Position numbers and translations under genes: made by a program. The notes below the pieces were generated by a model. That model saw only the letters and a list, made by a program, of their open reading frames with translations, did no database searches and was not told the DNA's origin. This document shows, in pieces, positions 135-53,688 of a stretch of DNA of 64,000 bases (positions within the stretch are counted from its first letter, which is position 1; each line of letters opens with the position of its first letter). The stretch is taken from the NCBI RefSeq assembly GCF_964355755.1, contig NC_092674.1, forward strand, positions 7,755,001 through 7,819,000, in the 5' to 3' direction. This stretch comes from Antedon mediterranea. Taxonomy: Eukaryota; Echinodermata; Crinoidea; Comatulida; Antedonidae.

Positions 135-151
135 AATAATAAAAAAGTCAC

Positions 152-3100
152 CTTTTCTAGTGATATCTTTCTTTCGATCATAAAGTCATTCTTCACTACT
201 GATTTTACAGTGACGATAAATTGCCCGAATTTCATTGGTTGTTTTATTTGCTTGTCAATGTACGCGCCACACGTTTGGTCCATTTCATTCAGCTGCACAA
301 TGACGTCAGATTTATAGTCAAACACCAACCGCCAGAAATCCTCAGTAGTATTGGCTGGGTCAGCCAATGGAGCCTGTGTCACAATGTACGCGTTGGGCTT
401 CTTGTAATTCTTAAAATATAGAAATACGTACTATGATTAATGTTATAAAACAGAAATAATGGATTTGTATGAAACAGTATAGCCTATTACTTAACGCACT
501 AAGATAATAAAATATAATTCATATTTTGCGCAATATCATTTTCAATGTTATAGAAACACACTGAAAAATACTGATAATCTATATATTAATGCTACTAAAT
601 TTTTCGCGTAATTTTACGTATCTCCTCCAAAACCACTGAAAGGTACGTGCTCACATTTAGCACACTAATGTTTATTGAGGGGCCGCACACGATAGGCTAT
701 GTCACTTTCCTGAATTTTAAGGATAAACACTAAAAAAAGGCAAAAAATAGCAGTAATTTGATGTCTCAGCGACCAAGTTACGTCATTGTAAAACTACTCA
801 ACCTCCTCTGTTGTGTACCACCATGGCCGGATCTACAACTACCATGCCGGGCCGCTAAATACACAGTCTTTAGTCAACCGTATCGACTGAAGTTTTAATT
901 AATTACACCTATCCTTGGAACAGAATGTATTTTGTAAATCACGGTTTGGCTCAGTGAGCAAGTCGCCGTGACCATTGATATGAATGCTTAGTAGGTTCAT
1001 GGAGGAAATATACAGACTGTACTGTATTTCCTCGATGGTAGGTTCGAGCTCAATCCGCGAAATGTGTAATAATTAAGTATCACCGTTTAAAGCTAAAAAT
1101 CAAAACTAAACCACAATGTAATTACAAAACTAGCAAAAAAGATACGAAAAAATACACACAAAAAAATGGTAAAAAAAACATGAAAAAATGTAAATGAACA
1201 AATAAAACGAATCCACAAAATAAATAATAAATAAATGTCATTGTTTCATTTTTGAGCATTTTATGTAAATAAAAAACCCACACACAAGTAAAACGAATCC
1301 AATTGAGTGTCGTGTTTCCGCTAAATTCAAATATCAACGAAAAATACACCCACAATGTTTGTGTCCGAGCGCTTCATCTAATTTCGACTACTTTTTGTGT
1401 TGAGTCCGTAATCATTGTTATTATTCCAATACTTCACATCTTAATTCGATAACTTACCAATTCATTATTTTATCATTAAAATGTTTTAATCTCTGCCAAC
1501 TGATTGACAAAAGTCTGTCCCGCTCATGCACTTTGTCACTTTCTGAGGCGCACCCCAAATCCAGTATTGCTTTCATTTTGTAGCTTACATATATTTCAAA
1601 GTAAAGGAATACTCGGTGTATAACAAAATCAATGGCCGTAAGTAGTTCCGAATTGTATTTTTGACAATTTGTTTGTTTAAAAAAAACAATTTGTCAGGGG
1701 CCGGGAAGTGATTTTTTTATTTCGTACAGAAGTTGAGGCCCCTTATGTGAAAGATAGCCGAACTACTTAAGTTCCTAAATATAACTAAACCTAACCCTCT
1801 CTATAATCTCTCTCTTACTATAAAATAAAAAGAACTTGCTCATCTGATTCGAACCTCATACATCGACATGTAAAGTCCAAAGCCTAATCCACTCGACTAC
1901 ACAGACGGCTCGATAGAAAATCTTTGTATTAGCGAATTGTTAGCTCATTTCTAACGTAGCTTATGGACATGATTAATGAATATTCATGTTTATTTTGTGA
2001 CGTCTCATGAGGGGTCCCCAACTTACGAAAAGAAACATCACGGCCGGGAAAAGTACGCTTTTATTATACTTAATAATCATGCCACGGCGGTGAATTTTTA
2101 TTAAGGTAGACAAACCGTGCGGAGCACAGGTTTCTGGTAGACCACACTTTAATTACTTTAATACACTTTTTTTTATCTCTACGTATCAAATAATTAATAC
2201 ACCACGAAAAACACCCAAAATAATATAGTTTGGCATGTTTATACTTTCGTTATGCGTTTGCGCGCATCATCTAATTTACAGCACAATTTTTCTTTAGCGT
2301 CTTTTATTTTCCAGTCAAAAGTAAAGTCAAAGTTCTACTGTACTATTGCTTTAATTTTTCAGCCTACATTATATTGAAGTGAAGGAATAGTGTATAACAA
2401 ACCAATGGCCGTAAATACGGTAGTTTCGAATTTTATTCGTGATACAATTTGTTTTAATTTTAATAATTTGTCAAAGTACTTTTATCAAAGTGCGCTGTTA
2501 TTATACTTGCTCATGCAAAGTATATAACAACATATTAAAGCAGAAAAAGACCGTGCGGAGCACGGGCTACTGCTAGTACAATAAATAATACAAGTAATTG
2601 TATGTTACGTAAATTTAAATCGTCTTACGTCACAGAATGATGCGTTGATGTAATCAGTACCACGGTCGGATGGTGACATCAAGAATGGACGAGCTTTGTT
2701 TACTGCAAGACAACAAGAACAGTTTCTCTACCTATACTGTATTGAATTATGTGCCAATACAACGCAATGAAGAAATCACTCATATTTGTCAGCAGAATAA
2801 ATAAATGGATTTTAACAATATTTTATATGTTCATTATATGCAGTATTCTTTGGCCTATTATTGTAAACAGAACCAACCAAATATTGCAAATAAAAAAAAA
2901 ACATAAAATTAAAAGATACAAAGGCGGAGATGTCTTAAAGTATAAAACCATGAGATTATGTCATTAACATGAATAAATAATGATGGGCAGCTTCGAAATC
3001 ATACGAATAAAAAGAAAAAAACGTGTTTAGTATTTTTTTGGCAATGTCTGAAACTAAAATTCCAATTATTAAATAAACAAAACAGGCGTTGTTTTACAAA

Positions 3101-6100
3101 ATCACAACCTAATGTATTTTCTTATATTCTTATTTTCTTATATAAATCTAGAACTTACGAGGTAATACGTCATCGAATCTGTTCTTGAAAATGTTCTCAG
3201 GTTGTCTTGCGTGTGACGTAAGATCATCAACAGAAAGTGGAAACAAACAGTTCAAAGTCTATGTGTAAATAAGATAAAAGTGTTAAGAGGGCGTCTCATA
3301 CAAGGGGAACGATCTTTATAAATAAGCAATATCGTGTCATTCATTCATTGTGAATATAAGTATAATAGTTAATGAAATGAATTATGTTTAGAATTAAACT
3401 TAATAATGCTCACTTTGAGTTGAAAATCAAAATGTGTGTGAGTTTGTTGTGTTTGTCTTTGTATTTCGTTTTGCAATTCAGTTACAGGAATTACAGTCTT
3501 TCCACAAAACAATTCCTGAAGTATGACGGCATAGATGAACTTATATTGTTCCTGTAAATAAAATTAATAACCATTTTATTTTTAGTATTTATACGCCATA
3601 CTGACCTATGATTTATGTTGAAACCAACCAAAATAAACAAAGCAATTCAACATTTTGCTTTATAAGTAAAAGTGTGAGCATACGTGCAATATAAACTTAT
3701 TTATTGAATTTGATATTATTTTGCTAATTTTGTCAGTTGAAGAGATATATTTAAATAAAGAACGAATTGATGAATAACCTCTGTTTGAACCATTTGGATA
3801 CGGTTCTGCCTCATACTTCGTACAAAATTGAACACGTCCACTTTGCCTTGGTCCTTCGACATATCCAACATGGCTGCAATGGTGATCACAGTTCCCGTCC
3901 TGCCAGCTCCAGCGCTAACCAATGTATAGTAAAAATTATATCAACCGAATAATATAATAATAACAATATATACAACATGATTGCAATTGCGATCATAATT
4001 CATCATATTTCAAATATATTCAAAGGTAATTATGATAACAATTGGTTTGCTAGCAATTTATAATTTTGTTGTCTCATCTGTAATTACCATATTGACGTAA
4101 TCATAATGTCATGGTTGTTTAAATATCAATACCTTTTTAATGCGTGTAAAATCATTCACATTTGGATAAAATAGAGTACCGAAACTGATGTTGTCATTCG
4201 GTTAAATTATCAGTTATGATTACTAGTACAATTTTTAAAAAAGATCAAAGTTATACTCTCAGTTTGTAGTTTTTCAGTTAGATTATTACCTGCAATGTAC
4301 AATAACTGGCCCACTGGTACTAGCAAACTTCTGCTGAGTTTTTCTAAAGGCTTGGATAAAATCGATTAACTGCGGGACGGCGTTGGAAACACTCTTGTCA
4401 GGCCATTCCGTGAAATGATACTGGTATACATTGTAGATGCTATTCTCATCTCCCACCTTCAATAATAGATCAAGACAAATAAACAGTATTTTATTATTTT
4501 ATCTAATGTTTTGGTGTGATTTTTAAAAATAACGACTGAATACATGATGGTAATTAAAATGATTATATTAAAGTAGCTTATAATAATACACACATATCCT
4601 GTTTTTATATTATATGTATTCATACTTTTGCTATATTATATAGGCCTAAAGAAAGAATTCACATGTACTGGAAGTAATAAACTGAATATCTTCTTTTTAG
4701 AAAAATAAATGTATAAGTAATCGCTTTTTGATAATGAGCAACTCTACAATATAGGAAATGTTTTTTTAAATATTTTATATCCATTATGTTGTGTTTATTG
4801 TTTTATGTTTTTTATGTAAAAGGGTCCTGCGAAAACAGAAGTGTAAACTTCTCTATGCAGGATCCTTGCCATCATTTATGCTATGAAACTATATTTATAA
4901 AGGATGAGTAAATAAATGTGAATTGAATTTGAATTAATGATCATTTCAAATTGAAACCACAATAATAACATATGGTTGTCTCTATTATAAACGTGTTAGT
5001 AAAATTTGTTTTTTGAAGTGTAATGTTTTAATAAAGAAAAGTGTTGTAGGATAGACACAACTTCAAATCACTGGATGAAACATAATTTTACCTTCTGAAT
5101 TTGAAAAATTCTTGCCACATAGAAACCGTGATTGGTTTCACCGGCATTCGCTACAGACAATTCTGCGTACACCTGCGTATTATGTAAATCAGGCCAGTAT
5201 TGTTCACATTTTTTCTGCAAAATTAAAACACAACAAAATTAAATACAAACAAATTAAATAGACCTACACCAAAATTAAATACAACAAAAGTACATTACCA
5301 AATACCAACTAAATTAATGAAATGTGTTTAAAACGTAGGATACGCATTACTTGAAGGTACAGACAAAAAAATAGCTTGTATCATGAAGAATTTTGTCATG
5401 CCCTAAATAATGCACTCAATATACTTGTATTCAATTTCGCACCGTCGGAAAGTTAGTATTTGTAAATCCAAATTGTTAATAATCGGTACAAGTACAGAAA
5501 AAACTCAATAATGGCAAGATGAAGAGGATAATGAACCTTTCGTCTTTTTTACTACTTTTTTTTTATCGAATACCATTGCAAATTCATACTAGAAAACTAT
5601 AATACCCTCGTTCCCTCAACAAGATTCGTAACAACGACAATAACTCTAGACTTTTCTTTCCAGACCATTCTCCACATATCGTTGATTGAAGCCATATTTG
5701 GACCTGAAAATGTAAAGCTAATACAAATTAATATTTTAAAACATTAATAACACACGAAATCATTGTATACATTATTAGCATCTTGTTTTAATTTATTGAT
5801 TGCTGCTAAAACTTAAGAGACTTAGAACTTAGTACATGCGTATTAAACTGGCCTAATTAGTTCTTACCTTGGCATGCGATGAACTCATGTGGTATTGTAT
5901 ATCCCTGAAAAAAAGAAAGGCTACATTAAAATGGGTACAATTCAAAACAGCAACTACTACTAATATGACGTTGAAACGGTGTGTAAGAGTTATTGCTTGT
6001 AGAAATTAATTACTATAGTCGGGTTATCACTATAAAGACATAAGCGTTTAACTTTTTAATTACATACTGTTAAATCACTGCATACATACAGTATTATAGT

Positions 6101-9100
6101 ATCTATATATAATCATTTTAATTTGTTTAAATATATAATCATAAAAAACAAACTCGCAGGACAGATTGCTATTTTTCTTGTATCATCACTGTCTCTATTC
6201 CTACACTTCAAACATTGCTTAAATCGCACTTGAAGTAGTAGAATGTATTGTTATGCACCAGAAATAAATATTAAAAGAAAATAGTGTAATATTTATCATT
6301 TGTGGAATGTCAGTAAATATTTATGTTTGGTCAATTTAGCAATCCCACTGTAAAGTATCTCAAGAACAATGAACCTTTGTTGCTATTATATTCTTTAAAG
6401 CGAAAATATATGGTTTTTAATATAATATTTATTTAATTGTTATAAAATTGTAATCAAAATAACTTACATCAAGATATGAAGCGTTAATGTAGTCCGACCC
6501 CGGAACATCTTCGATCTGGTCAAGAACTACACGGGTATTGTCATCTGAAATTTGAATAATTGTAAGTTATTAGGTTGTATAAGGATTTGGCGCGAAATAA
6601 TATTTGCCAAGCATAATTCTATAGGGCCTGATTTTATTCTTGCTTTTATGCGAGCTGAAAAGAAAATATAATGAATTTTTTGCTTTATGTGCAGTTTTAC
6701 ATGGAAGAATGTTGAGTTACTAATTGCGTTGTATGCGTATTTGTTTTTTATATATAATATGAGTTCGTTAAATTCCGCAGTCTCCGTATAGCAACAACAC
6801 AATAGTATATACCATGTTAGGGCAAATTATGATAATAAAAATGTTCAAGAAACTTACATGGAATGACGTTTGCATATCGATTTTTCTTCGTATTTATTGA
6901 CGATTTTGCGACTGTGCTCGAGAATAAGGGCTTGTTGCCAAGATCCTTAAACAAATTGATAACTAATTAATAATTAATATACTCTGAGTACAGTATGTGA
7001 TAAGAACTTGCTGAACAATTATGGCTAATAGAGTGGCTTAGTATTTAGGGTAAGCCATGTAAAAAAAAAATAATGCTAGCAATTTGAAAAAAAGCCATAT
7101 AAAGTAATGTGCATCAACAATATGTAACTAAATATTGGGGAAAAAACATTAATTTAGAGTAAATAATTATTTTAGAGGTTCTAAGTAAAACACAACACTA
7201 TATTTTACCTTTATTGGGAGTCAGTTTTATATTATGTTATATTTTACCCTTATTGTGAGTCAGTTTTATATAATGCTATATTACATAGCCTATGTAAATA
7301 CGCGAACGTGATTGGTTGAAACTGCATCACATGACTACCGCTGCGAGGATGTTAATCGTATATATCCTCGAGAACGATGATATTGACTGTGTAATTTTCG
7401 CGTACCCTGTCATTAATCATATAAATTCTCGAGTACGATGACATTGACTGTGTAATTTTCGTGTGCAACACTCGCGTTTGCCGATAAATAAACAAAAGTC
7501 ATCTACTGGATCTTGAACTTGCAATGCAATGTCTCTCCATCACAAGACAACGCTTCAACCGCTGCGCCACGTAACTTGCTTGAAGAAATTAATCATCTAA
7601 ACTATTTAAACTATGCATACATAGCGCCCTCATTTGTTATTAGTCCACACTAAATGTGATGAAACACAGTTTGTGATTGGTCAATGCTCACGGTAGTAAC
7701 CTAGTAACTACGCGCTGAACATCCGGTGATTCGGCTCCTCGAAGAGAAGAAGACGAATTGTTTATTCGGCCTACCTGATTATAATATTATTATTAATAGG
7801 CTTATTGATGGAAATTCTCCTGTTAATTTAAACGACCTAGGGCTAAGTGAATATTTTATTGCCAAGGAATCATTAATTAGTAATTATCTGTATATTATTC
7901 TTCGCAAGGTAAGGTGTCTAGGCAGGCTTGTTTAGATACAATACAAATACTATAGGAGGCTTAGCCTAGCTTCACCCAACCCAGCAGACTTGTTCTTGGC
8001 TATATAATATAACAGATATTGCCTTTTATATCGGTTAAATATAAGATTTGACATCCCCTCGGGAATGATATTAAGTTCTCGGGGAATATATATTTCCCTC
8101 AGCTGGCGCTTCGGGAAATATATATTCCATCGAACTTAATATCATTCCCTCGGGGATGTAAAATCTTATATTTAACCTCTAAGCAGTCAATATCTGTATA
8201 ATATTTTACCGTTACAGTTTTCGGTCTTGTTGCTGTAATGTCACACATTATAATACATTTATTAATAAAATGAAAGAATGACAATAAAACAAAATAAAGT
8301 AAGGTATACTAACAGGCCTACTGTACGAAGTATAGCAATACGTACCTCGTACTCTTTCTCAAAACCACTTTCACTTAATTGACGCTTCATCACATACTCA
8401 TGTAGTTTGGATAACTCAATGGGTTTGTACTCTTGATTATCTAAGTGTGTGTTATCATACACAGGTTCCTGATTAATTTGAGGATGAGGTTGATTTTCAC
8501 ATTCAGAATCGACCTCATCATCAGCGTGCTTTTTTGAAGAATTGTCGACACCTCTCACTTCATCATATGCAGTGTCTTTATTAAATACAAAGGCACCCAT
8601 TATAATTGACATTTTATATATCTTTTTTTTATTTAAAATCAGTACTCAAAACGATGATTAAATCTTCATTTTTGACCTTAAAATATATCAAAAATCAAGT
8701 CTAACCGAATACCATGATAACATAGTTTTACTTCTCTTCACTGAAATCCTACCACGCCTTCCCATCCAACCCGCCTAGTTATCCTACAGCACTTACTAAA
8801 TCCATCCACCTACTAAACATACTCTGCCTATTATTCCTATCCCATCCTTCTAAACTCAATTCGCCCACAAATCTTCATATACATGTAAAAATCTTACCTT
8901 CTATGTCTTGTTCTTGTAGAATGTTGCGAGATAAAATACAGGTGGATAAACTAGCGTCTTTTTTATTTCTTCGCCTAATTAAAAAGACAATCCAGAACAA
9001 AAATAATAACCAGAATAATATATAGACTCAGAAATTCATTATCTCCAAACTAGCTCATTGCATATTTGTAATGTTAACTTTGACCAATAATGTCCTGTAC

Positions 9101-12100
9101 AATTCCTCATCTTATATTTGTGCGTATTTTGTATTATGTTCCAAAAGTAATAATAGGCAAAACGTCGGCAAGGGTTTGAGGCTCACTCGCTCCATGGTTC
9201 AGGTGGTAGAACGAGTCTTCTCGGATAAGGACTATAAACCATAGGTCCAGTGTACACATCTGGCTCATGTGCACTTTAAAGAACCTAGTATATCTTTCGA
9301 GACGAGTAGGGGGTTACCCCTGTGTTCACACATATTCACTGTCACAAGCTCATAATATTATACATACAATGGGCCCTCTAGGAGAACAGAGAATATATAA
9401 TAATAATAACAAATATCTTGTATTTTGTATATCGAATGATATTGTTAACAATAATGTATTATTATAGTATCATTATACAACAATGTAGATATTACCGTTC
9501 AATTAATATTAATATTAGAAGAAGTACCACAACCACCGGAACCAAGCTACCAACTATCACACCTACATACGATTCTAAAAACAATTGGAATAAAATAAAT
9601 TCAAGCATTTCAACAACCTAAATTTGCTAACGGAAGTAAAATATAGTAAACATTTATAATTATGTTACCCACAAGATTCTCATCTTTTTGGGATCCTGTC
9701 TTTGTCCATTTTCTAAATTGTCTCTTGTCATTATTGTTTTTGTTACTTTTTGTCTTGTGGGCGTAACTAAAGTTTTTTTTTTTAATTTGAGACAGAAGAT
9801 GTTGTTTCTAATTATTAATAAAACAACAAAACTACTATTTATTTTACTAACTTAAACGATTATTATTTATTAAAATTTAAATAATAAAAATAAATTTCAA
9901 TTTAAACCAAATATAATACATTAAAAGAAAGCTGAATGACATTCTTAACCAACAACTATAAAATCAGCAAGCATTATGACAAGATTTACATTATTTGTCT
10001 AACCTTTTTACTTACCTTTATCGCAACCAGTCCCAACCATTAGTTTGATTGTATCAGATGTCGTATTAACGTTTAAATACGACGCTAATACTGTGAATGT
10101 ATATTCTATACAGGATTCAATTCCTTCGTCAAAAACAACTTCATTTTTTGTTGTATTCCCTTGTTGAAATATACCACCTGACAGTTCATAATGGTAAGTC
10201 ACATGACGGTCTGGGATGTCGCACGTAGAAGCATTCCACTTAATTTGCAAGTGTGTACCATTTGTGAACGGATTGCATTCTATTGATGGCTCTATCATTG
10301 GAACAGAAAGAAAGTGACTGCGCTGGAGGTAGCCATTTAGCAAAAGGTCGATATAGGCCTAATAGTGCCAACACGTTTGATTATATCGGATGTTCTTATC
10401 ATAATCAATGTAGATAGGAGTATAACATTTCTTTTAAATCCATAGTCTAGTTTTAATTACAGAAAAAAAATGTATCGATTTTATCCATATTTTGAATTAG
10501 CCAATATATTAAATTTCTACAAAAAATATAGTATTTTTACGTGTGCGTTAAAAAAAACTCACCTGACGGCGCTGTTTGTACCGTTATATTCTGTCCCCAA
10601 TTACCAGCAATCTCCAAATTATTAACAACTCGAGCGTTTACGATATATTCAGTACAGCTTGATAATTCGGATAGTTCAACTTCTAATTGAGTACTGTTTG
10701 TTGTGTTGACTACACCTTGTACATTTCCATCAATGTACGAGTATTGCACTTGATATCGAAGAATATAGCTACACTGGATGTGTACAGGAGCACTAGAAAC
10801 AGGCTGAAATATAAGGAAATGATGTTTATTTATATTTAGCAGACAGATTACACAACTGAGAACAAAGGCTCACTTAGCATTGCAAATCTGTGAACCTTTA
10901 AATCATATGGCTTTCTATATTCTGTATTAATTTATTGTTTTTCTATCATTTAGGTTTATTTTTTCTTCGAACTTGCATAAATATTTTTTAAACAAAAAAT
11001 TACCACCGAACTTGCGCTAATGGCTAGGGTTGGATAAAAGCCCAAGTAAGCAACGGGTACTGCATCAATTGGATGATGATTGTGTGCTAGCCTTGCGTCT
11101 CAGTGAGTTAAGCAATGCCCTATTATGCTCTGACGTAATTGTGTATACCTACTTTATACTAAGTACATTGAGAACACTTGCAAACAAATTGGAAGTAATT
11201 CTAGAGTGAGATTCGAACTCACAACCACAGATCACTAGCCTAACGATTCCAGCCCAAGTAGCAGGCTGAAAATATAATATCAAACGTTTTTACAAGAAAA
11301 AAATAATAGAATGGAATATACCTTTAATCTTACGATGACCTGATTATCTTCAACGGTGTTTGATTCTATCTCAGGTTTTTCTAAAGGTTCTATGTAATAC
11401 GTAATAAAGTTCATTAATACTGATAAAATAGGGGACCATATAGTTTTAAACTTGATAATTACTAACTATCAAGTTTATAATATAATAAATGATAGTTTGG
11501 ACACTGACATTTACAAAAACAAATTGTTTAAAAACCTAAAATATCAAACAATAATTATTAAAATATTAGAGCTTACTTGTACATATGGTGTTGGTTGATC
11601 CAATGGTACTCGGTGGTCCATCTACTTCAATACCACCAACCATCCTCGAAAATTGAGAGTAAAATTGAACTTGAGTATTTAGGGTGAGATTATCAATAAC
11701 AACTAAATTGTTACCCGTGTCATTTAATAATACAAATGAATTCATTTCCGATGATTTATACGAAAACTTCCGTCTTGTAATTGTTCCTGTTCCATAGTCT
11801 TTACCAGAAATCCAAGTGACGTCAAAGGTTAGAGTAGTTGCTGTTTGGTGTACAATTGGTGGTCCAGAACCATATGGTAATGCTAATTATGAACACAAAT
11901 AAAAGTATTTCATTAGGGTAGACCACTTGTAGAACGAGATGGTCATCCGACTCGGTGAATGAAACGAAACATTTTATCAGGGCCGTCGTTTATAAAGAAT
12001 ATATATTTTTTTTAAATGGATTCACTTGCAGCTTGTTGATGTTGGTGTGAAATAAAATGGATTTACTTTGTTTAACAAATTGACGGCTGAAGGAGTGAAT

Positions 12101-15100
12101 TATCAAAACGACGGCCGTGTATCATGCTAGTAGGCAATGGGCGTTTGAATTGAGGGAGCCGACCTAGTAGATTTCCGCAGAAATGAACGGCGGCCGATAC
12201 GCAAATTAAAATATTATTATTTTAAAAAAATTCAACTTGTTGACCAATTCTTCTGACGAAAACAAAGCTCAACTCTATCTCCAGCTCCCATAGCGGAATA
12301 ATAATAATAAGATTGAATAGCCTCTACAATACGGGAATCCCTGACTTTATGCCGCACGTGGTTGAAATGTTTTTGTATTGATAATCATTTTTTTTTGTAT
12401 TTCTTTAATAAGTTAAAAATAAGTTCAATATATACCAGGAGTGGGATATTGCATCATGGATGAAAACGTTAACAAAATGCATTGAATCAGGCAATTTTAC
12501 CCTTCCCTGATTGAATAAAATACAGAATTTCTGCGTTACCATCCATTAATAAATATACGGCCATACTAGCTGCTTTGAAACACCGGTTCTCGTCAGATCA
12601 CAAGTTAAGTTGAGTTAGCTGAGCCCGGTTGCGTTCTGGATGGGAGACCGTCTAAGAATCGCATATCGGGTGCTTATATACCGGATAGTGATAATGTAAG
12701 GCTTCCTTTGTATTATTATAGTACCAACCAATTTCATACCTCTGTATTTAGTTAGACGTTTAATGCTAAAAAAAACATATAACAAAATAATATCTTGCAT
12801 AATAATAGTGTATGGTATTACCTATGCTGCAGTTTGGTCCAGCCCAAGCCTCGTGACATTCATCAGGACAACTTCCATCTCGATTACAATCTTCAGAGTT
12901 TTTGCAGTGACATGGGTAGTTACACAAATCACCAAATAAACCAGACGGACATTCTGAAGGTACTACACAAACAAAGCATACTTGAATAACGTTTGAATAT
13001 TGAAATAAAAATGTGTTCACCTCGGTCACAGTTCTTTACAGTATGATATGGATGTGCTTAAAAAGAATGGTAGTATATACTTGAGTGTATTAACATACTT
13101 AAGAAAAACGGGACAGAAATATTGACATAATATGTGCAACTCCTTCTGGGTAATCACATACGTTTGTAGCAGGCTTGGGACAAATAGGGTATGTATCACA
13201 GACGAAGTTGATTAGAAGGATTTGCATTGTCTGCTTATTTCCATGGGCATACTAATAAATAGAAAATGGCTATACGATACCTTGACAAGTATCACCAGTG
13301 TATCCATCCGAACATTCTGACCCGGATGAACATCCTGTGTGTATATCACAAACACTATCGTTACAGTGACATTCTTGGCGACAATCTGCTCCATAATACC
13401 CAGTCTTGCACTCTATAATAATAATATTTATTCGGTCATCAATGTAAAAAATAACTAGGAATGAGAATAGGCTAAAGCCCAAACAGATTCTTAACTCACT
13501 CCATAAAACATCATATAAAACATTTAATATTGTATTATTGTATTTTATAGCCATGATTGTTTTGAAAATTAATACAATTATTATAGGCATATAGTATACT
13601 GTTCCGTAGTTTTTTTGCCAAGGAATTATATTATTTTATATATGTCCCCCTGAATTTTTTGTATGTATATGCCATTTTAAAGTCACATACTATTTATGCA
13701 CTTGACCATGGATCGGAAAAATAATATTTACCTAAAAAACTGTAATTTAAAGAAAACATAAACAAATTGTCTGTCAATTAGGGGTCATAACTTTATTAAA
13801 ACAAAAAAATAACCTATCCATCCAAAGTCTCATAATATTTATTTTTCATGTTTTTGAGGGAAAATACATCTTCAAAATGTAACAATATTATATTAACTTG
13901 AGTATACTCATATAATTGCAACAATTCCTATGATATTAACACTCTATAACCTGTATTACAATCTTTTTCTCCAAAACCATTGATGCATGTACAACCAACT
14001 GGATCAGGTGGACATAAAAGAGCTCCTTGGCAATTGTTGCCAGTAGTAGAGGAACACACAGAGTCACATTTACGCCCCCAGTCGTTATTTCCACAACCTA
14101 TCGGATTAAATAACATACAATTACGTGCAATATGATGCATGTTATATAACTCCTCTGCGTATTTTAACAATAAATTATACAGTAATTAGGCGTACCGTGT
14201 TTACAAGATTCGCCGTCGAATCCTGGTGGGCAAATACACAGACCCGTTTTATCGTCACACACTCCGCCATTGTAACATACGCGACAGTTCATTTCACAGT
14301 CTGGAGGATTCCAATTTGGCGAAGGACAATCTATTTGGCAAATACGTGAGAAAAATGTAAGTGTATGAAAATGCATTTAGGCCTAACAAGTTATTATCAA
14401 ATTCAGCTGCACTGTAAAATATGAAAATATGTTTAACTTATAATTTCAGTAAAATTAAACCTCCATGAATATTTGATCTAAAGCCTATACGTATAAGCAT
14501 TTGCCTATGTTTTCTCAGAAACCCAATTTTCAAAACCTATAATATAGACTCTTTATCAAAATTCCTTGTATTGCAACCTACCTCTAACAATAAGTCTCAT
14601 GATACCATGGTTACCATCAGGGCTAGCACTTGTATAACATTCATATACGCCATCATCTTTTTTTCGTATGTTTTCGATCACAGCGGACGTATTACCCCTC
14701 ATGTTGTATATTTCTTCACCGTAATTTTGTCTCCAACGTAAATCGTTAATATCACCACCTTTACTGAGATTGATAGTGACAGACTCTCCAATACCGACCG
14801 TTATGGTTCTGTACTCCATATCAATATTGGCTATAAACAATAATATTAGTAAACTATAGTATTGAAATAAAAATGAAATTAGAAATGCTTTAGATATAAA
14901 CATTAAACACATTAGTACGTATATTTGACAATAAATCATCATAACATTACTCACCAGAAGCGGATGTCAATACAATAGCTGATTTTGTAACGACTTCGCC
15001 TTTCTTTGCTTTGAATGAAAAGACGCCAACTCTTTCGGTCTGAGGTTGTAACTTGTTATCAACACCCAGCCACGTGTGAATCGCCTCGTTTACTCGGTAT

Positions 15101-16112
15101 ATAATTGTGCTGTTTGTGTTAAATATTTTATATTCAGGCATATTTTTTGATAGTGGGTTTGTACCACTTTTATATTCAGTATCATTCCAAGTCACGTTGT
15201 CTTTCCCATCAATAATCTTGTATAATATTCCAACTGATAAGTCTCTAATATTGTTGTCGTCTTTAAGTGTGTATCCTCGAAACCAACTACTACCAGATGA
15301 CGTCAGCGGTGTTTCAGAAAAACATGTTATATCTAATGGATCTTGAAAAAAAAAATATTCTTGAATAAATCATTTTGAATCAGGCCGCTACTTGCTCCAG
15401 AAATGGTCCCAATTGTAAAGAAAACAGTACTGTACTATATACACAATTTAATTTATAAAGTAATTTTCATAGGTGGTCGTGTTAGCCTATTTAATATAGT
15501 AGGCCTTTATATTTCATTTATTGGAAACCACATAGCACCAATCGGAGTAATGTATAATTTTACAACATATTTGGACCAAACAATACGTAAACTTTTGCAA
15601 GTAATCTATACGATTTACTGAATTTAGAATCAGACGGATCAAGTAAAATGTAAAGTAAAGACTATTATGCATGCTATGTGAACGCACAGAGGAATTTGAG
15701 TTTTGTTAAAATTAAATTAGGCCTAAACATAAAAAAAATGTTACCTTTTAAAAATCCTGTAAAAAAATAACTGTTACACAAAAATAAACATTATTCCAGT
15801 TAGAATATAAACATTTGTAAATAACATTTTTTTTAAATCTCTAATGAGAGTATACACAACTATATGAATGAAATACAACTGAAGTGATCCGATTTACAGT
15901 CATAAATTGGGAAATAGAAGAAGTATGGCCGATCGTCAGTATGTAATACAAGTGTCAAAAGTTAAAAAGAATCATTGATATCTAGTTATTTAAGCAATAT
16001 AAATGCTAAACTAAATAGGCTAAATCCTACCCGATGATCTGCTTTGGCACGTCAGAAAGAGAAGAAGAAAATAGTTTCGAAAACATTTGACCAACATCTC
16101 GACGAAAGTCAT
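152..16112 (-). CDS. Gene 1: Tie-like-ectodomain receptor tyrosine phosphatase (3' end off window)
   Basis: Spliced gene, 25 exons visible with GT/AG borders: 16031-16112, 14955-15341, 14582-14830, 14196-14330, 13951-14097, 13281-13412, 12822-12962, 11577-11882, 11322-11389, 10563-10803, 10016-10291, 9496-9574, 8898-8974, 8346-8575, 6858-6945, 6468-6544, 5868-5904, 5606-5703, 5092-5214, 4290-4456, 3779-3914, 3414-3551, 3159-3258, 2629-2702, 152-409. These sum to 3846 nt (1282 codons) with no stop. The predicted type I receptor has signal peptide, N-terminal domain, Ig, four EGF-like modules, FN3 domains, one helix, and PTP domains D1 and (partial) D2. Every exon whose length differs from gene 2 does so by a multiple of 3, so the frame is intact. 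By comparison with gene 2, three short exons (end of D2) lie beyond the left edge. The role, tyrosine dephosphorylation at the plasma membrane, is inferred from the family; the ligand is unknown. An upstream alternative start would not fit the signal peptide. Confidence 0.88.
1380..2575. repeat. Two diverged copies of an intronic segment
   Basis: Phrases in the first copy recur in order about 780 bases later. Examples are the CATCTAATTT block (1375 and 2268), the block with TGTATAACAAA and CAATGGCCGTAA (about 1615-1640 and 2390-2412), and the ACAATTTGT block. CGTGCGGAGCAC also occurs twice (2118 and 2552). It is an old duplication or two insertions of one element, in the gene 1 intron between D2 exons. 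Confidence 0.5.
1838..1915 (-). repeat. tRNA-derived SINE head
   Basis: On the minus strand an A-box-like TGTAGTCGAGTGG and a B box GGTTCGAATCA stand at tRNA spacing. The flanking bases do not pair into an acceptor stem, so a functional tRNA is unlikely. Intronic in gene 1. Confidence 0.5.
3779..6945 (-). other. Gene 1 PTP domain D1 (catalytic)
   Basis: Seven exons (6858-6945, 6468-6544, 5868-5904, 5606-5703, 5092-5214, 4290-4456, 3779-3914) give a full PTP domain. Seen in order: KNRYAN (phosphotyrosine loop), DYINASYLD, MWRMVWKEKSRVIVVV, the FTEWPDKSVSN WPD loop, VIVHCSAGAGRTG (C-x5-R) and NRIQMVQTE (Q loop). The signature is split by an intron just after HC: AG ends exon 4290-4456 and C opens 3779-3914, giving Ser. 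All catalytic residues are present, so activity is expected. The WPD loop continues KSV instead of the usual HGV/HGVP, which is unusual. Confidence 0.9.
4740..4935 (+). mobile_element. LINE 3' tail remnant
   Basis: GGGTCCTGC...GCAGGATCC (about 4822-4863) makes a stem, followed by AATAAATGTGAATTGAATTTG. This terminal hairpin plus GAATTT simple tail is typical of CR1/L2-like LINE ends. No coding part remains. It lies in a gene 1 intron. Confidence 0.4.
7187..7275. repeat. Tandem duplication, about 50 bp
   Basis: TATTTTACC(C/T)TTATTG(G/T)GAGTCAGTTTTATAT is repeated twice in tandem within a gene 1 intron. Confidence 0.6.
7349..7470. repeat. Tandem duplication, about 64 bp
   Basis: Two units share CTCGAGxACGATGA, then ATTGACTGTGTAATTTTCG. 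They are slightly diverged and lie in the same intron as the preceding repeat. Confidence 0.6.
7505..7580 (-). repeat. tRNA-derived SINE head
   Basis: Minus strand reads ACGTGGCGCAGCGGTTGAAG (A box) and later TGCAAGTTCAAGATCC (B box). There is no matching acceptor stem, so it is a SINE or pseudo-tRNA. Confidence 0.5.
8005..8203. mobile_element. Long foldback (MITE-like) element
   Basis: The arms of about 85 bp are near-perfect inverted repeats: ACAGATATTG at about 8012 pairs with CAATATCTGT ending at 8197, and CCCTCGGGAATGATATTAAG pairs with CTTAATATCATTCCCTCGGG, around a centre of about 11 bases near 8102. No coding capacity. It sits in the gene 1 intron between 6945 and 8346. Confidence 0.75.
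8346..9574 (-). other. Gene 1 transmembrane and juxtamembrane exons
   Basis: Exon 9496-9574 encodes a single membrane helix (VGVIVGSLVPVVVVLLLILI) followed by basic RRNKK at the splice to exon 8898-8974, the stop-transfer signal. Exon 8346-8575 is an acidic linker holding tyrosine motifs (AYDEV, EPVYDNTHLDN) and then KPIELSKLHEYVMKR, the start of the PTP domain as in R2B-type receptor phosphatases. VYDN fits the pYxN consensus bound by Grb2-type SH2 domains (established consensus; use here is inferred). Confidence 0.8.
9165..9345 (+). repeat. Dispersed SINE copy (5'-truncated)
   Basis: Matches, in the opposite orientation, the SINE at 37612-37816: CGGCAAGGGTT box-B region, GGTAGAACGAGTCTTC, GATAAGGACTATAAACC, CCAGTGTACA and CGAGACGAGTAGGGGGTTAC. 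The A-box end is missing here. Confidence 0.7.
10016..11882 (-). other. Gene 1 fibronectin type III exons
   Basis: Exons 11577-11882, 11322-11389, 10563-10803 and 10016-10291 encode FN3-like repeats. Signatures include the conserved aromatic and Leu strands around VQFYSQFSRMVGG, the WNASTCDIPD..VTYHYELSG B-C region with Trp, and tyrosine corners such as SCTEYIVNARVVN and SCIEYTFTVLASY. They contain many NxS/T sequons, as expected for a membrane-proximal extracellular stalk. The 68-nt exon is the first part of a repeat completed by the next exon. Confidence 0.8.
11025..11280 (-). repeat. tRNA-derived SINE in gene 1 intron
   Basis: The minus strand has a strong B box, GAGTTCGAATCTCAC (near 11206-11220), about 40 bases after an A-box-like CTTGGGCTGG. 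AGCCCAAGTA occurs at both ends of the interval. A tRNA gene is unlikely because the terminal bases do not pair. Confidence 0.45.
12553..12680 (+). repeat. 5S rRNA-like sequence (pseudogene or 5S-derived SINE)
   Basis: The segment follows 5S rRNA through its length: ACGGCCATAC at the start, TCTCGTCAGATC, GAGCCCGGTT, then CTGGATGGGAGACCGTCT and CGGGTGCT at the end. The box C-like promoter region is well kept. It is about 8 bases longer than 5S, with small insertions. A single copy inside a gene 1 intron with substitutions argues for a 5S-derived retroposon or pseudogene, not a working 5S gene. Confidence 0.7.
12822..14330 (-). other. Gene 1 EGF/laminin-like module exons (four)
   Basis: Four phase-1 exons encode one Cys-rich module each. 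14196-14330: CRVCYNGGVCDDKTGLCICP then GFDGESC, a canonical EGF. 13951-14097: CGNNDWGRKCDSVC ... GCTCINGFGEKDC, laminin/Tie-type. 13281-13412: GYYGADCRQECHCNDSVCD, MEGF/Tie-type. 12822-12962: CPSGLFGDLCNYPCHC with CHEAWAGPNC. This run of xGxxC..xCxC modules after an Ig domain is what Tie receptors and MEGF proteins show. No calcium-binding EGF consensus is evident. Confidence 0.85.
14582..15341 (-). other. Gene 1 N-terminal unknown domain and Ig-like domain exons
   Basis: Exon 14955-15341 (129 codons) encodes an extracellular module I cannot name. It opens DPLDITCFSETP, contains WFRGYTL and ends GVFSFKAK..TKSAIVLTSAS, which looks like beta strands. It has one clear Cys, so a classical Ig disulphide is absent. 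Exon 14582-14830 encodes an Ig-like domain: a strand with GESVTINLS, a Trp in LRWRQN, and the Ig-type end KKDDGVYECYTS then MRLIVRG. The DxGxYxC pattern (DDGVYEC) is typical of Ig V/I sets, although the first Cys is replaced. Both exons are bounded by phase-1 introns, the usual setting for shuffled ectodomain modules. Gene 2 has the same two exons with identical lengths (387 and 249 nt). Confidence 0.75.
16031..16112 (-). other. Gene 1 exon 1: start codon and signal peptide
   Basis: The ATG is at 16110-16112 on the minus strand. It opens a 27-codon exon with a basic/aromatic stretch, a hydrophobic core (NYFLLLFLTC) and a polar end (QSRSS), followed by a GT donor at 16029-16030. The exon ends in phase 1 and joins in frame to 14955-15341 (residues DPLDIT). 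A second Met six codons in aligns with the start of gene 2 exon 1 (MLAKRF), so either Met could be used. The matching exon of gene 2 at 38354-38426 ends with the same HSRS/QSRS signature and phase, which is the main support. Confidence 0.8.
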
Positions 16113-46880: not shown

Positions 46881-46961
46881 GACCTGAAATAATTTAACGT
46901 ACCGTACTGCTTGAGTTTAACCGTGGAGAACAATACATTTGTCAATGCTGTTACTTCTTCC

Positions 46962-48138: not shown

Positions 48139-48571
48139 TCAATTTGTAATTGTGTTACCATAAACATGTTCCGGTACAGACTGTTGAGGGTTTGTGTAAA
48201 CGTGTTCAGTAGTAGCAACAGTAGGCTTAATACCTTCATATTCACTTTCTTTATATTTTTTAGACAAACTTTGATAATCGGTATCGATCGTGCATATATC
48301 TTGTTGAGTAGTTGATGATTTACCAACATCTTTTTCTGAATGTATACGTCTAAACCTAAAATTAACCAATTGTAGCGTACCGTTATAATTATTTTACCCT
48401 CTGTCTGTCAAAGAGGCTTGTGGTTTCGTCAGATAATTAATTATCTAATTTCTTTAATTTTCAACTACAGTAGTAGTCTAAAAGTAATACCTTACCGTAT
48501 AAATATCATCAAGGTAATAGCAACAGTTGCAATTATTGAGGTAACTACAACACCTATAACGTAACCGTAAA
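48139..48571 (-). other. Gene 3 membrane helix and cytoplasmic tail
   Basis: Exon 48496-48571 gives VYGYVIGVVVTSIIATVAIT and LMIFIR, a single membrane span. The next exon (from 48355 down) continues in frame with RFRRIHSEKDVGK, then two tyrosine motifs EHVYTNPQ and EHVYGNT, before the frameshift and TGA at 48139-48141. The shifted frame would read EYKPIELS and stop after about 20 more residues. The tail thus has adaptor-type YxN motifs but no catalytic domain. Confidence 0.7.
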
Positions 48572-48719
48572 CTGGAAATAAAAAGAACACATTTAACCAT
48601 TTTTCATGTTGAATTGTCAAGCTCCTTGACAAAATGTCTAGATTCTAAACTCAATATTCTTTTAGAATTATCATAAAAATTACTGATTCAGAAGCAATAT
48701 AAGGAAATGTGTTCCTAAC

Positions 48720-51700
48720 CTTGCTTCTTTTGGTCACAATCTATTCCAAACATAGTTGTTTTTGTGTCAGAAGTCCCGTTGACATTTAAATACGACGCTA
48801 ATACTGTGAATGTATATTCTTTACATGACTCAATTCCTTCAACAAATACAACTTCAGTTTGTATTGTAGTCCCTTGCTGCTGAAATAATCCACCTGACAG
48901 TTCATAATGGTAGGTTACATGATAGTCTGGGATGTCGCACCATGACGCTTTCCACTTCATCAGCCAATGTGTTCCATTAGTAAATGGATTACTTTCTATC
49001 GATGGTTCTATTATTGAAGATATGGAATTTACTATATATTGTAAATAATTACTTATAATTAGGCCCATTAGTGTTTCTCACTTAATAATGTTTCATATTT
49101 TTTAAATAATTAAGTAACCCTGATCACTTAAAACGTATTACGGTGTGTTTATACCAAAACATAGCATTTGAAATAATAATAACTTAATATTCAAAATAAA
49201 ACTGATGTATGTTACGTTAGTTTACCTGATGGCGCTGTTTGCACCGTTATCTCCTGTCCCCAACTTCCAGCAATCTCAACATTATTAACAACTCGAGCGT
49301 TTACGATATAATTAGTACAACTTGATAATCCTGATAGTTCTACTTCTAATTGCGAACTGTTTGTTGTATTAACTACGTATTGTGTATGTCCATTAAAGTC
49401 TGAGTATTGCACTTGATATCGAAGAATAGAGTTACATTGGATGCTATCATAATCACTAGATACAGGCTGAAAATACAAAAGAAAAACTTCCAGTATAGAA
49501 TAGGAGAAATACAGTATTGAACCGTTATTTGGAATTGATACAAGTACCCATTACCAATTTTTGTTGTTATGTTATGAGGAAAAACAATTAAATAATACTT
49601 CGATATGAGTTACTACGTTTAAGTCTTCTACTGAACTATAGGGTTTGACATATTATACCGACCCTTTGAGAAACTATTTACGTTGTTAAAACGTATGTTG
49701 GTCTAATACTTTTACCGAATTTTGAAACGTAATTTATACTTTTAAAATAATGGTGGAATATTTTCGGACCCTTTTAGAAACTGTTTACGTCGTTAACAAA
49801 AATACTTTTACTGAACGTACATATACAGAAACGTAATGTATAGGCTACTACCAAGAAGAAATCTATAGTAAACACTGATTATAATATACCTTTAAACGCA
49901 CGGTCATCTGGTTATCTCCAACAGTTTTAAATTCTATCTCAGGTTCTTCTAAATGTTCTACATATCACAATGTAATACAATTGATTAGAACCGGAAAAAA
50001 TAACATACACTCAGGTATGTTCATTAGTAGTTCCATTTTTAAATTATTTTTATTATTTTGTATGAGATCTTTATGATTCTTCATTCTGTTCATTGTGTAA
50101 CACTTATCTCAAAAAGTAAAAGGCCAATGATCACCAAAATAAAAAAAAAAAATGTTTAATTATTTAATCTTAATCCTAATAAGCTTTTAAGCGTGATCAC
50201 TTATTCGTGACGTCATTTATATGCCATTTTGATAAATCACTTTATCAATCATATTTCCATAACTCTTAATCAAAATATTAATGAAATTCACTATACATAC
50301 ACTTCAGGTCAAGGGTAAAAATATTAGGAAAACAATTAATGTATGCGTACACAAGGTCGTTAACAATTTAAAAAGCTCAAAATTACGTTTGAGTATGAAT
50401 TAGGCCATTTGCGTTGTTTAAAAAAAAGTACGCGCGATACTAAATACGATTTTTTTTAAACAAATCACATTCTACTCATCTTCCTTAAATCTGTCTACAA
50501 TATCAAACTAGTTTGACAAAAAAAAGTGTGATGTGCCCAAATATGGTAATGATATGACATCATCATGTCCATACATGGTCAAATCACATAAAATTTGATA
50601 GTGTAGACTGAGCTTTAGGACATTCTCCAAATTTGAGTTCATTCCGACTTTGTGCATACGAGCAGGTTAAAAATGACAAAATGCTATGCAGTTATTGTTT
50701 AACTGTAATAAGTGCTAATGAGCAGATATGAATTCATGTGCACATTTGACATGCACAGTTTTATGACGTCATCATATGGCCACCTTTGATTTGTTTTTCC
50801 TTTTATCTTAGACCATCATATTCAACAGAGCGCATACACTTATCTGTGATAAATTTTCTTTTAAATTGTAATGTTATGCTTGCTCAATCAATTATATTTA
50901 TCATGCATTGCCAAAATATTAATTTTGAAGACGTCATCACGCCTAATCGAGAATTACGTAGGTCATTATAATTTCACCTACACCGTATACTGAATTCTCA
51001 CAGCTCTTTAGAATGTATAGGTAACCTTGATATTTATAAGTTATTATGAAAAATCTGCTGAAATGTAGATATACATATACATTACTGTACAACATGCACC
51101 GCGCTTCTACGTGTCCAATTTTCTTCTTTTTCGAAATTGGCATCTTCATGTTTGATTTTGATAACGTCATCATACCAAAATATTAGAATATATTTGGGTC
51201 TCGTAATTTTACCTATGCTACACTGTAGCTATGCAATATACTGTATATGACACATAATAGCATATAACTCAGCAGCACTTAAGCGTATAATGCATCCATC
51301 ACTTTTTTTGTGATTGTATCTTAAGGTTTTCTTAAATTAGATGTCGGTAAAATTATCTTTTATCACAATGACCACCTATCAATCTTCAAAGTCACGAATT
51401 AAATTCTGGTTATATATTTATTACTGTCTATAGGTCTATTATGAGTAGTTCAACTTACGTCTGCAGATGCTTTGTTATTTTACTTATGTAACTGGTATAA
51501 TTAGTAATTTTGTTTGAATGATTTTGCTGAATATTAGAGCTTACCTGAACATATTGTGTTGGTTGATCCAAGTACACTTCCTGGTCCATCTACCTCAATA
51601 CCACCAACCATTCTTGAAAATTGAGAGTAGAATTGTTATTTTGTATTTGGGATGAGATTACCAATAGAAATAAATAAATCATTATCTTCTTCATCTAATG

Positions 51701-51856
51701 ATATAAATGAATCCATCTCCGATGATTTATACAAAATTTTTCGTTTCGTAATTGTTCCTGTTCCATAGTCTTCACCGGAAATCCAAGTGATGTCAAACGT
51801 TACAGTTGTTGCTGTCTGGTTTACAACTCTTGGCGGTTCAGAACGGTATGGTAATG
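48720..51856 (-). other. Gene 3 fibronectin III exons with premature stop
   Basis: Exon 51545-51856 is a mosaic: 51545 to about 51630 resembles gene 1, the rest resembles gene 2. TAA lies at 51636-51638, right beside the switch. Exons 49226-49466 (QLEVELSGLSSCTNYIVNAR) and 48720-49007 (WCDIPDYHVTYHYELSGG) are closer to gene 1. The 1.6-kb intron at 49958-51544 is unusually long and contains several TGACGTCA-like palindromes, but I see no exon in it. Confidence 0.7.
49640..49830. repeat. Diverged tandem duplication in gene 3 intron
   Basis: CCCTTTGAGAAACTATTTAC followed by GTTGTTAA recurs about 115 bases later as CCCTTTTAGAAACTGTTTAC and GTCGTTAA, with shared flanking words (ACTTTTAC). Confidence 0.5.
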
Positions 51857-52140
51857 CTAATTGTTATATAAATAAATTCAAACTTTGTTAAACAAAACTG
51901 TATTATTCAATTCAATAGCTTAGATATTTTGCATCATGAATCATCGTGAATGTCACACATTAACAGATTTGATTATTATACATTTGTATTATTATTATTA
52001 TTATTATTATTGGAGTTGTTCCATTATTACGGTACGGAGTATTCTGTGTTCGAATATTTCATGACAAGGCCTAACTGTGCCTATCTAAACTAAAACAACA
52101 CACATATTTAATTTTTTATAATATTTATGTCTATCGTTAC

Positions 52141-52711
52141 CTATGCTGCATTTTGATCCAGCCCAAGCTTCATGACATCCATTAGGGCAACTTCCATTTC
52201 GATGACAATCAACCGAGTCCTTGCAGTGACATCGGAAATTACACAAAAAACCAAAGAATCCAGATGAACAGGACGGGGGTACTTTAAATAAGAAAAGCAG
52301 TTAAATGTTTTTTGTAAGATAACGCATGGGATTTGTTCAATCGTTGGGGTATCCCAAATATGCGTATAGATATACTATAAAAATGGTATATAATATATTT
52401 TTCAGAATTACTATACGTATGCAAAAGTGACAAAAAAACAAAAACTAAACGATTTGTATTATTAAATAAAATCTAAAGATATGGCAAGTTAGTGATAATT
52501 TGGAAAGTGAAGATAAAACAAACTACAAATGGTAATCTCCTTGGTAGTATCATTGAAATAGCCCGGTTTTGTACACTACCTTGACAATTGTCACCAGCGT
52601 ATCCATCCAAACAGTCTGATCCGGTAGAACATCCCGTGTGTTTATCACAAACACTATCGTCACAGTGAAATTCTTGGCGGCAATCTGCTCCATAGTATCC
52701 AGCCACACACG
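52141..52711 (-). other. Gene 3 EGF-like exons
   Basis: Two exons equivalent to EGF modules 3 and 4. The exon at 52580-52711 reads GYYGADCRQEFHCDDSVCDK, with Phe replacing a Cys that is invariant in genes 1 and 2. Exons and flanking introns are almost identical to 31367-31911 of gene 2. Confidence 0.75.
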
Positions 52712-53299
52712 CTGTAAAATAATTTAGTATATTTTATCACAGATACCTGTTATCATCTAACTGTTATTTTTAATTTTACTTGATTTAACAAATAATTACA
52801 AAATTAACTAGATCTAATTCGTTACAATGACGAATTATAGGTTATAGGCATTGATTTAAATAAAGATAATTGATTTTTAAAGGATATATTGATTGATTGA
52901 TTGATTTTTTCAGAATCATTAATTATTTATAATGAATGAAGAGGATCTTGCTATCGGAAATAGCCGGTATCACAATCCGATCAAAGATCCCTCCGCGTAT
53001 AAACCACCCTTGTTACCTAATAATAAAGACTTAAGTTACTTTTTCTCTAGATTTCATTATAAATCATGTGTATAATCTATACACTAAGAAATAAAATTGA
53101 ACAAACAATACGGATAATAAAAAAAACAAATTTCGTTTCATTTCCCAAGGTGAGGCTTAATCTCGGTAATTTTTTTAACGCTTAAAATTGCCTGAAACGT
53201 ACTCTAATTTCATCGAAAATAAATTTTGACAATTTTTAAAATTTTAGGCGCGCGTACATATGCGTTGTATGCGCTACTCACGTAATTGTATTGCCATAT

Positions 53300-53688
53300 G
53301 ATGAAATATGATCTGAAAGTTATGAGTACCAAATTTGGTTTAATTATGATTCATGCTTATGTTAAATTAGATAAACCCATCACATGGAAGAGCCATATAA
53401 ACTTTATTAAAAAATAGGATAAAAAAGAAATCTGGAATTCTGTTTAGTTTACGCCATATTGTACCCTGTAATATTTTACTTATGCTTTATAGAGCAATTA
53501 TTCAATCAAATATTACTTATTGTTTTAAAAGTCTGGGGTAGCACGTATAAGTCGAATCTATATCCTATTTTACTTGTCCACAAAATGTGTCTTAGATGTA
53601 TAACTTTCTCTGATTTTATGGCTCCATCTTCTCCATTTAAAGATCTGGGTATTTTAGACGTTTTTAAAGTTGTTTGAATTAAGTATAG
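53300..53688 (+). mobile_element. LINE fragment within the duplicated block
   Basis: Duplicate of 32800-33185: WKSHINFIKK, YKSNLYPILLVHKMCLRCIT and PFKDLGILDVFKVV are seen in shifting frames. Interrupted at 53689 by the BEL element. Confidence 0.75.

Follow-up and report, generated by a model that had tools for sequence, protein, structure and literature searches.

Introduction

Vertebrate immune cells have paired receptors such as KIR, LILR, CD300 and TREM, encoded by clustered genes in which like ectodomains stand on opposed tails and sequence is exchanged between the members. Receptor protein tyrosine phosphatases (PTPs) of the R2B (PTPRK/M/T) and R2A/R4 (PTPRS, LAR, PTPRA) groups carry a transmembrane segment (TM) followed by tandem D1 and D2 domains with D1 being catalytic, and Tie receptors have been studied as vascular kinases. 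Among invertebrates, the fester and fester co-receptor (FcoR) genes of Botryllus form multigene haplotypes, and their tails with immunoreceptor tyrosine-based inhibition motifs (ITIM), hemITAM or YxxI/L/V motifs have been proposed to integrate activating and inhibitory signals (PMC12065747). The FcoR ectodomain consists of a V-type Ig, a sushi and two C2-type Ig domains (PMC12065747). The present study deals with an array of receptor genes in the crinoid Antedon mediterranea, seen through a window of 64,000 bases (contig NC_092674.1; C5:7755001-7819000 of the 354-Mb assembly; numbers preceded by w are positions within this window). The window holds the whole of gene 2 and parts of genes 1 and 3. 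Genes 1 and 2 are phosphatase-class (P) receptors, and gene 3 together with nine further tails makes up a short-tail (S) class that ends in a motif of the activating type (immunoreceptor tyrosine-based activation motif, ITAM). The receptors are of type I, and on sequence comparison their head is homologous to the Tie ectodomain.

The array resembles each of these systems in part. With the vertebrate paired receptors it shares clustering, like ectodomains on different tails and exchange between members; however, the inhibitory arm here would be a covalently attached phosphatase with no recruitment via ITIM, the ITAM lies in the sensor chain, and the sensor is of Tie derivation. Like the Botryllus genes it is an invertebrate multigene family with tyrosine-motif tails, but it has an EGF/FN3 architecture and an attached PTP, whereas FcoR, in the parts of the account used here, is described without an EGF block or PTP (PMC12065747). 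With Tie1 and Tie2 (human Tie2 ectodomain 2GY5/4K0V) the window receptors have in common the stretch from the end of Ig2 to EGF3, the DPxGC signature of EGF2, RLIVR at the Ig2-EGF junction, an FN3-type stalk and one TM; they differ in carrying a PTP or an ITAM-like tail instead of a kinase, EGF4 instead of the Ig that follows the EGFs in Tie, and an N-terminal domain that is not recognised by sequence. Genes 1 and 2 agree with the receptor PTPs in TM, tandem D1-D2 and a catalytic D1, and differ from them in the Tie-type head with EGFs and the lack of a MAM match. Among the matches listed from the open-licence PMC literature, none describes a Tie-type ectodomain with PTP domains or an ITAM tail attached; subscription papers and preprints lie outside this scope, and automatic annotations in other invertebrates may exist.

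Results

A Tie-type head on phosphatase domains. When the ectodomain of gene 2 (669 residues) was compared with PDB chains, Tie2 came first (E 1.8e-36, 129 bits, from the end of Ig2 to EGF3) and the next other proteins stood at 1.8e-6. With the EGFs alone the values were 1.6e-26 for Tie2 and 2.2e-9 for the next protein. The first-pass annotation had read a Tie-like sensor on phosphatase domains from the order of the modules, and the relationship now stands as sequence homology beyond domain order. Of the Tie-like order itself, EGF1-3, the FN3-type stalk and the single TM are shared with Tie; genes 1-3 have a fourth EGF before the FN3-type exons at the place where Tie has its Ig, and a PTP or a short tail is found where Tie has the cytoplasmic tyrosine kinase. 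The MEGF family had been named as the grouping that would speak against Tie, and on this point the comparison was against PDB chains only, with Tie2 first. All three window genes have the EGF2 signature [DN]PxGCxC, as do human Tie2 and two Tie kinases of the same genome; it is absent from the segments of 6u11 and SCARF1 that were compared. An EGF tree with 6u11 and SCARF1 as outgroup had no starred branch and the outgroup was split, therefore only the shared EGF2 signature is used from that comparison. The N-terminal domain of gene 2 found no significant match in a profile search (best E 0.27), and its AlphaFold model found no Foldseek match at E<=0.001. The predicted local distance difference test (pLDDT) of that model was 59 and that of Ig2 was 66. 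Because of the pLDDT of 59 and the lack of a Foldseek match, the N-terminal domain is called all-beta only.

The phosphatase class. Three paralogues lie in tandem as had been annotated, collinear exon by exon and all on the minus strand. Gene 2 runs from a signal peptide through an N-terminal domain without conserved cysteines, Ig2, EGF1-4, FN3-type exons, TM and juxtamembrane segment to PTP D1 and PTP D2. In the Pfam scan it gave two Y_phosphatase stretches (E 7.6e-132), with Ig_3 and EGF_2 under their cut-offs. The earlier list of modules holds for Ig2, four EGFs, a single TM and, in genes 1 and 2, two PTPs; fn3 passed the Pfam cut-off in one paralogue only (33.8 bits), and three sets of FN3-sized exons in each gene are read from exon homology. 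Genes 1 and 2 possess, as receptor PTPs do, a TM and a PTP D1 with HCxxGxxR and WPD. In this class D1 is conserved and catalytic, and D2 is degenerate; D2 of gene 2 has WPK in place of WPD and so probably carries little or no activity. In genes 1 and 2 and in 13 of 14 retrieved loci, the exon that follows the catalytic HC has SxGxGR[TS]G, the HC itself being unchecked in those 14. Cytoplasmic dN/dS was 0.16 between genes 1 and 2. The affinity to R2B phosphatases proposed earlier survives in part. In a comparison by bit score, single-D1 scores were highest for PTPRK (274 bits), followed by PTPRT (258) and PTPRA (252), but the list for D1+D2 together was led by PTPRS, PTPRF/LAR and PTPRA. When gene 2 was scanned with Pfam no MAM match reached E<=1, so that the MAM-Ig-FN3 ectodomain of R2B was not found.

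The short-tail class. Gene 3 has its own TM exon followed by a tail of about 70 residues (w48571-48139). The view that it lacks PTP domains was borne out by tblastn over the 11.6 kb after the tail (w36500-48150), where no PTP exon was found and the sole match had an E of 4.0; the same query recovered the cytoplasmic exons of gene 2. That match is an EYKPIEL-like remnant of the P-class juxtamembrane segment, out of frame, immediately past the tail stop of gene 3 (w48114-48149, minus strand), and it suggests that short tails may derive from a truncated phosphatase-class gene. A search of the genome with the gene 3 tail gave 23 listed matches, gene 3 included, all in groups that hold Tie-type EGF loci. 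Two of these (C5:7862494 and 7863397) were not retrieved and the 20 others were. The tail alignment consists of 10 short and 11 P rows, genes 1-3 included, and leaves out L019, a near copy of L018/L020, and L023, which is degenerate. All 10 short tails, gene 3 included, end at a natural stop soon after an (E/D)HVYxN-type stretch. The ITAM consensus is [DE]xxYxx[LI]x6-8Yxx[LI], and its strict form occurs in 10 of 10 short tails and in 1 of 11 P-class juxtamembrane segments; in shuffled sequences it was met in 17 of 30,000 short tails and 90 of 33,000 P segments. The S tails carry it as [DE]xxYxxL-x8-YxxI with YxN sites in addition. Across nine tails, the stop-bearing L004 being left out, dN/dS was 0.12 in the ITAM segment and 0.39 in the remainder up to the C-terminus. 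Behind the short tails no PTP match below E 2 was seen in six of six stretches, with gene 2 as positive control and the C7 stretch covering the first 8 kb only. Conserved exons run uninterrupted to the tail stop in three short-tail genes, C5:7.876-7.881M (modelled from EGF1), 7.848-7.855M (from Ig2) and 7.956-7.962M (from Ig1). At C6:537-545k the genome contains a gene for a tyrosine kinase with tandem SH2 domains, whose SH2 pair scores 166 bits against SYK and 158 against ZAP-70. SH2 and PTP exons at C3:14.097-14.104M look like an SHP gene, by position only.

A fresh frameshift at the tail stop of gene 3 was considered as the origin of the class and was rejected, since nine other tails end at the same place; the out-of-frame remnant itself is real. 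L023 (C7:9529960-9530959) is a degenerate short-tail copy with a stop.

A large array of both classes. The first-pass annotation had placed an array of three genes at 152-53688. The end of gene 1 and the start of gene 3 fall outside the window, and the tandem array is far larger. Genome searches report best candidates, hence array counts are lower bounds. Mapping used 99 first-EGF loci among at least 160 EGF matches; most second-EGF matches of the same genes were omitted, and 7987437, which goes with 7989596, was retained. Over C5:7.655-8.078M (about 420 kb) there are at least 22 first-EGF, at least 24 PTP exon and at least 17 tail-query matches, and the order of head, tail and PTP recurs. By this order the main array has at least 12 P genes and at least eight S genes, of which one has a degenerate tail; one further gene was assigned to neither class. 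Along C5 there follow six P genes, gene 3, one P, seven S and two P genes, and on the opposite strand two P genes, the unassigned one and another P. This is the arrangement of paired receptors, with clustered genes and homologous ectodomains on different signalling tails. Three P genes, at C5:7.694M, 7.711M and 7.734M, have Ig2-EGF2 heads that are identical or almost so, and they are either very recent duplicates or assembly copies.

Different histories of heads and tails. In a head tree (Ig2, EGF1 and EGF2; 35 rows, 174 columns) a single clade of the 11 short rows was rejected by the approximately unbiased (AU) test with a p-AU of 2e-7. In a tail tree without genes 1 and 2 (19 rows, 74 columns) all 10 short tails fell on one side, and none of 500 shuffles was as low. 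Over the greater part of the head, together with introns and 5' flank, genes 2 and 3 are 87-96% identical in nucleotides; the exceptions are 762 bases around the Ig1 exon (73%) and 218 bases of flank (71%). From FN3b onward similarity is confined to the exons and is 78-82%. A head that is nearly identical down to its introns, next to exon-only similarity in the rest, indicates that the head is a recent copy between a phosphatase gene and a short-tail gene in which the tails took no part. A dN/dS above 1 in Ig1 was sought and not found (0.45-0.67). Between genes 2 and 3 the dS of Ig1 was 0.39 as against 0.00-0.19 for Ig2 to FN3a. As its low identity is accompanied by high dS, Ig1 reads as a patch of other origin and gives no proof of diversifying selection.

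Tie kinases in the same genome. A search for the HRDLAARN pattern gave 33 places, two of which follow a Tie-type EGF locus on its own strand, at 8 and 25 kb downstream. The models built for both genes contain EGF, Ig, FN3 and kinase parts with three EGFs each. The kinase domain of the first matches Tie2 with an E of 4e-134, and its head of 220 residues reaches 126 bits against the Tie2 head, no better than the 129 bits of the gene 2 ectodomain. The genome thus retains a Tie kinase, and the window genes have a sensor of the same family on another enzyme. The second kinase gene was retrieved in two pieces with a 6-kb gap, and was compared by eye and by head identity only. A further HRDLAARN loop at C6:15052247 (plus strand), 27 kb upstream of the head of this second gene, possibly belongs to a third such kinase.

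Discussion

Homology of the head to Tie, two receptor classes, conservation of the motif, discordant histories of heads and tails and the presence of Syk-type and Tie kinases are established here. We consider it somewhat probable that the array is a paired-receptor system, in which S receptors with ITAM tails would activate and P receptors with their built-in phosphatase would inhibit. We infer phosphorylation, Syk binding, a shared ligand, opposition of the classes and an immune or recognition role. Kinases of the Src type would phosphorylate the S tail, and its paired tyrosines would in turn recruit the tandem-SH2 Syk-type kinase of the genome, by which a signal starts. Any P receptor with the same ligand, or with an allied one, would carry its covalently attached phosphatase to that contact, where the signal would be erased. 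Sequence exchange would keep the heads common to both classes while the tails remain distinct. The prediction is that where a P gene and an S gene have a head in common, both receptors bind one ligand and signal in opposite directions. The logic of activating and inhibitory pairs would in that case have been reached along another path, through fusion of the phosphatase to the sensor. The array has a bearing on how opposed receptor pairs arise.

Several observations weigh against this reading and should be noted together. Taken alone, Ig2 of gene 2 is a generic Ig by profile, with contactin first and Tie2 not among the best 60 of 370 matches; with the N-terminal domain also unmatched, the Tie signal resides in the EGF block. 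The head tree is weak, with 4 of 31 inner branches starred and an unsettled bootstrap. On it the short label needs nine changes, no different from the shuffled mean of 9.4, and sequence exchange violates the single-tree assumption of the AU test. The support for the tail split (91/87) is below the starred level and was obtained with genes 1 and 2 left out. A loose YxxL/I/V pair is kept in 6 of 11 P-class segments, so the tyrosine pair is not exclusive to S. In the assembly, the FN3a exon of gene 3 (51856-51545) has an in-frame TAA, owing to which gene 3 may be non-functional or may make a truncated protein. L004 (C5:25284077-25285076), a short tail, has an extra stop near the start of its exon. 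From the stops in gene 3 and L004 some S genes may be dead, and the stop-bearing copies L004 and L023 are apparent signs of birth-and-death turnover.

YxN motifs can serve as docking sites of the Grb2 type, and by their presence the S tail could be such a site instead of an ITAM. In its full form this alternative takes the short-tail genes as ligand decoys or as scaffolds that recruit Grb2-type adaptors via YxN, with the ITAM spacing being incidental. At least one YxN motif in every one of the 10 short tails agrees with it, and so does the nonsense codon of gene 3. The strict spacing in all 10 tails, the low dN/dS of the ITAM segment and the three short-tail genes with uninterrupted exons argue against it, and we regard it as unlikely. 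Opposition between enzymes could also be sought elsewhere. In vertebrates VE-PTP restrains Tie2, and the P receptors here could chiefly oppose the Tie kinases of the genome through a shared angiopoietin-like ligand, for which one Tie kinase gene and a second that is alike by its letters are at hand. However, the heads of the kinase genes are 56% identical to gene 2 in EGF1 and 38-42% in EGF2, whereas the S rows of the main array reach 84-96% in EGF1, 60-98% in EGF2 and 80-90% in Ig2 where it was found. The kinase genes also have three EGFs, are unlinked to the main array and number two against more than 30 P and S genes, which makes this a rather poor candidate. Still less probable is that adhesion RPTPs simply expanded in this lineage, some copies losing their PTP exons, with no functional pairing. 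Near-identical and degenerate copies do indicate turnover, and by the EYKPIEL remnant past its stop the S tail may well come from a truncated P gene; but one tail clade with a common end is not expected from repeated independent truncations, nor is such low dN/dS in the ITAM segment expected of a dead by-product. It is hardly credible that ectodomain and PTP exons are separate genes joined by an artefact of the models. Their joining is read from genomic models; exon order, phases and spacing are the same in genes 1 and 2 and the order of head, tail and PTP recurs along the array.

To return to the paired-receptor reading, it could be extended to germline-encoded recognition with an immune or an allogeneic role, where heads of Tie derivation are swapped repeatedly between a covalent phosphatase and an ITAM read by Syk. 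Specificity would then spread by gene conversion and the sign of the signal would stay with the tail. This extension is offered tentatively, and we lean towards doubting it. If true, kinase, phosphatase and ITAM receptors would be three outputs grafted onto one ancestral sensor family in one genome. A Tie-type head that drives phosphatase and ITAM-type families beside a Tie kinase bears on what the ancestral Tie sensor recognised.

Gene models and other loci

Paralogues were recognised by comparing stop-to-stop open reading frames with one another, and exons were taken from a codon-and-splice model (Table 1). For gene 2, six unconserved low-scoring exons (36379-36229, 36123-36097, 33717-33645, 32811-32757, 32584-32524 and 26433-26290) were removed from an automatic model of 33 exons and the signal-peptide exon was added. 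The curated model has 28 exons, the number first given. The last exons of gene 1, with the end of D2, lie outside the window.

Table 1. Positions of receptor features within the window
Feature	Position	Strand	Basis
Gene 1, phosphatase-class receptor; continues past the window to C5:7752249 (w-2751)	1..16097	-	exon homology, gene model
Gene 1 PTP D1 and first part of D2	152..6945	-	profile search, gene model
Gene 1 Ig1, Ig2, EGF1 and EGF2 exons	13951..15341	-	gene model
Gene 1 signal peptide, probable	16097-16031	-	weak match
Gene 2, phosphatase-class receptor, signal peptide to stop, 28 exons	21687..38426	-	gene model, signal exon near-identical in gene 3, exon homology
Gene 2 end of PTP D2 (HCLDGVCRSG; WPK where WPD expected)	21687..22618	-	gene model
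Gene 2 PTP D1 (HCSAGAGRTG, WPD) and first part of D2	23046..27524	-	gene model, Pfam, profile search
Gene 2 TM exon (28708-28621) and two juxtamembrane exons	27901..28708	-	gene model
Gene 2 FN3-type exons: FN3a, FN3b (two exons), FN3c	28942..31090	-	exon homology, gene model
Gene 2 EGF3 and EGF4 exons	31367..31911	-	exon homology, gene model
Gene 2 EGF1 and EGF2 exons; EGF2 with Tie-type PDPVGCAC	33874..34455	-	gene model, profile search, signature
Gene 2 Ig2	34852..35100	-	gene model, Pfam, profile search
Gene 2 N-terminal domain (Ig1 position; without conserved Cys)	35384..35770	-	gene model; AlphaFold all-beta, pLDDT 59
Gene 2 signal-peptide exon	38354..38426	-	homology to gene 3 signal exon
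Gene 3, part within the window: EGF3, EGF4, FN3-type exons, TM, ITAM-like tail	48139..52711	-	exon homology, gene model
Gene 3 tail exon to in-frame stop; contains two YxN motifs and DTDYQSLSKKYKESEYEGI, which fits the strict ITAM consensus	48139..48349	-	tail alignment
Gene 3 transmembrane exon	48496..48571	-	gene model
Gene 3 segment collinear with gene 2 (30758-33186), 89.8-93.6% nucleotide identity, introns included; a 31-base piece matches 34106-34136	51524..53719	-	

The signal-peptide, Ig1, Ig2, EGF1 and EGF2 exons of gene 3 lie to the right of the window at the equivalent of w70979-66479 (L002), 2.5 to 7 kb out. The signal exon is nearly the same as in gene 2, and protein identity to gene 2 is 69% in Ig1, 90% in Ig2, 96% in EGF1 and 98% in EGF2. 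The intron between EGF2 and EGF3 houses a retroelement on the plus strand, which we take to be of the BEL/Pao type, with open reading frames at w59968-61011 and w61990-63507 and RVT_1, H2C2, rve and DUF5641 domains. Two automatic models of gene 3 were discarded; in both a spurious intron masked the FN3a stop, and one of them also put spurious exons through the retroelement. The model of C5:7.848-7.855M includes a few extra short exons that are taken as spurious. Downstream of the gene 3 tail, satellite-like tandem arrays lie at w39348-41512 and w44695-46094 (units of about 100/194 and 63 bases), where a P gene would hold its PTP exons.

Outside the main array, other groups with EGF and PTP matches are found at C1:4.88M, C5:12.0M, C5:25.2M, C6:7.2, 8.3, 26.3 and 30.4M and on C17. 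Four Tie-type EGF genes (L024, L025, L029 and L030) show no PTP and no kinase in their automatic models, as far as the stretches were read, which suggests that the sensor family is wider than the P and S classes. Of the Tie-type EGF loci at C6:26.05-26.28M, sixteen have no listed PTP match and lie beside five that do have one. The sole locus modelled there (L026, C6:26097001-26106900) has a TM and, at its end, a tail with DRVYEVTDDDYATV, which may represent a further class of tyrosine motif. At L028 (C8:15776501-15786500) Tie-type EGF exons are followed, by eye, by C-type-lectin-like exons in the automatic model.

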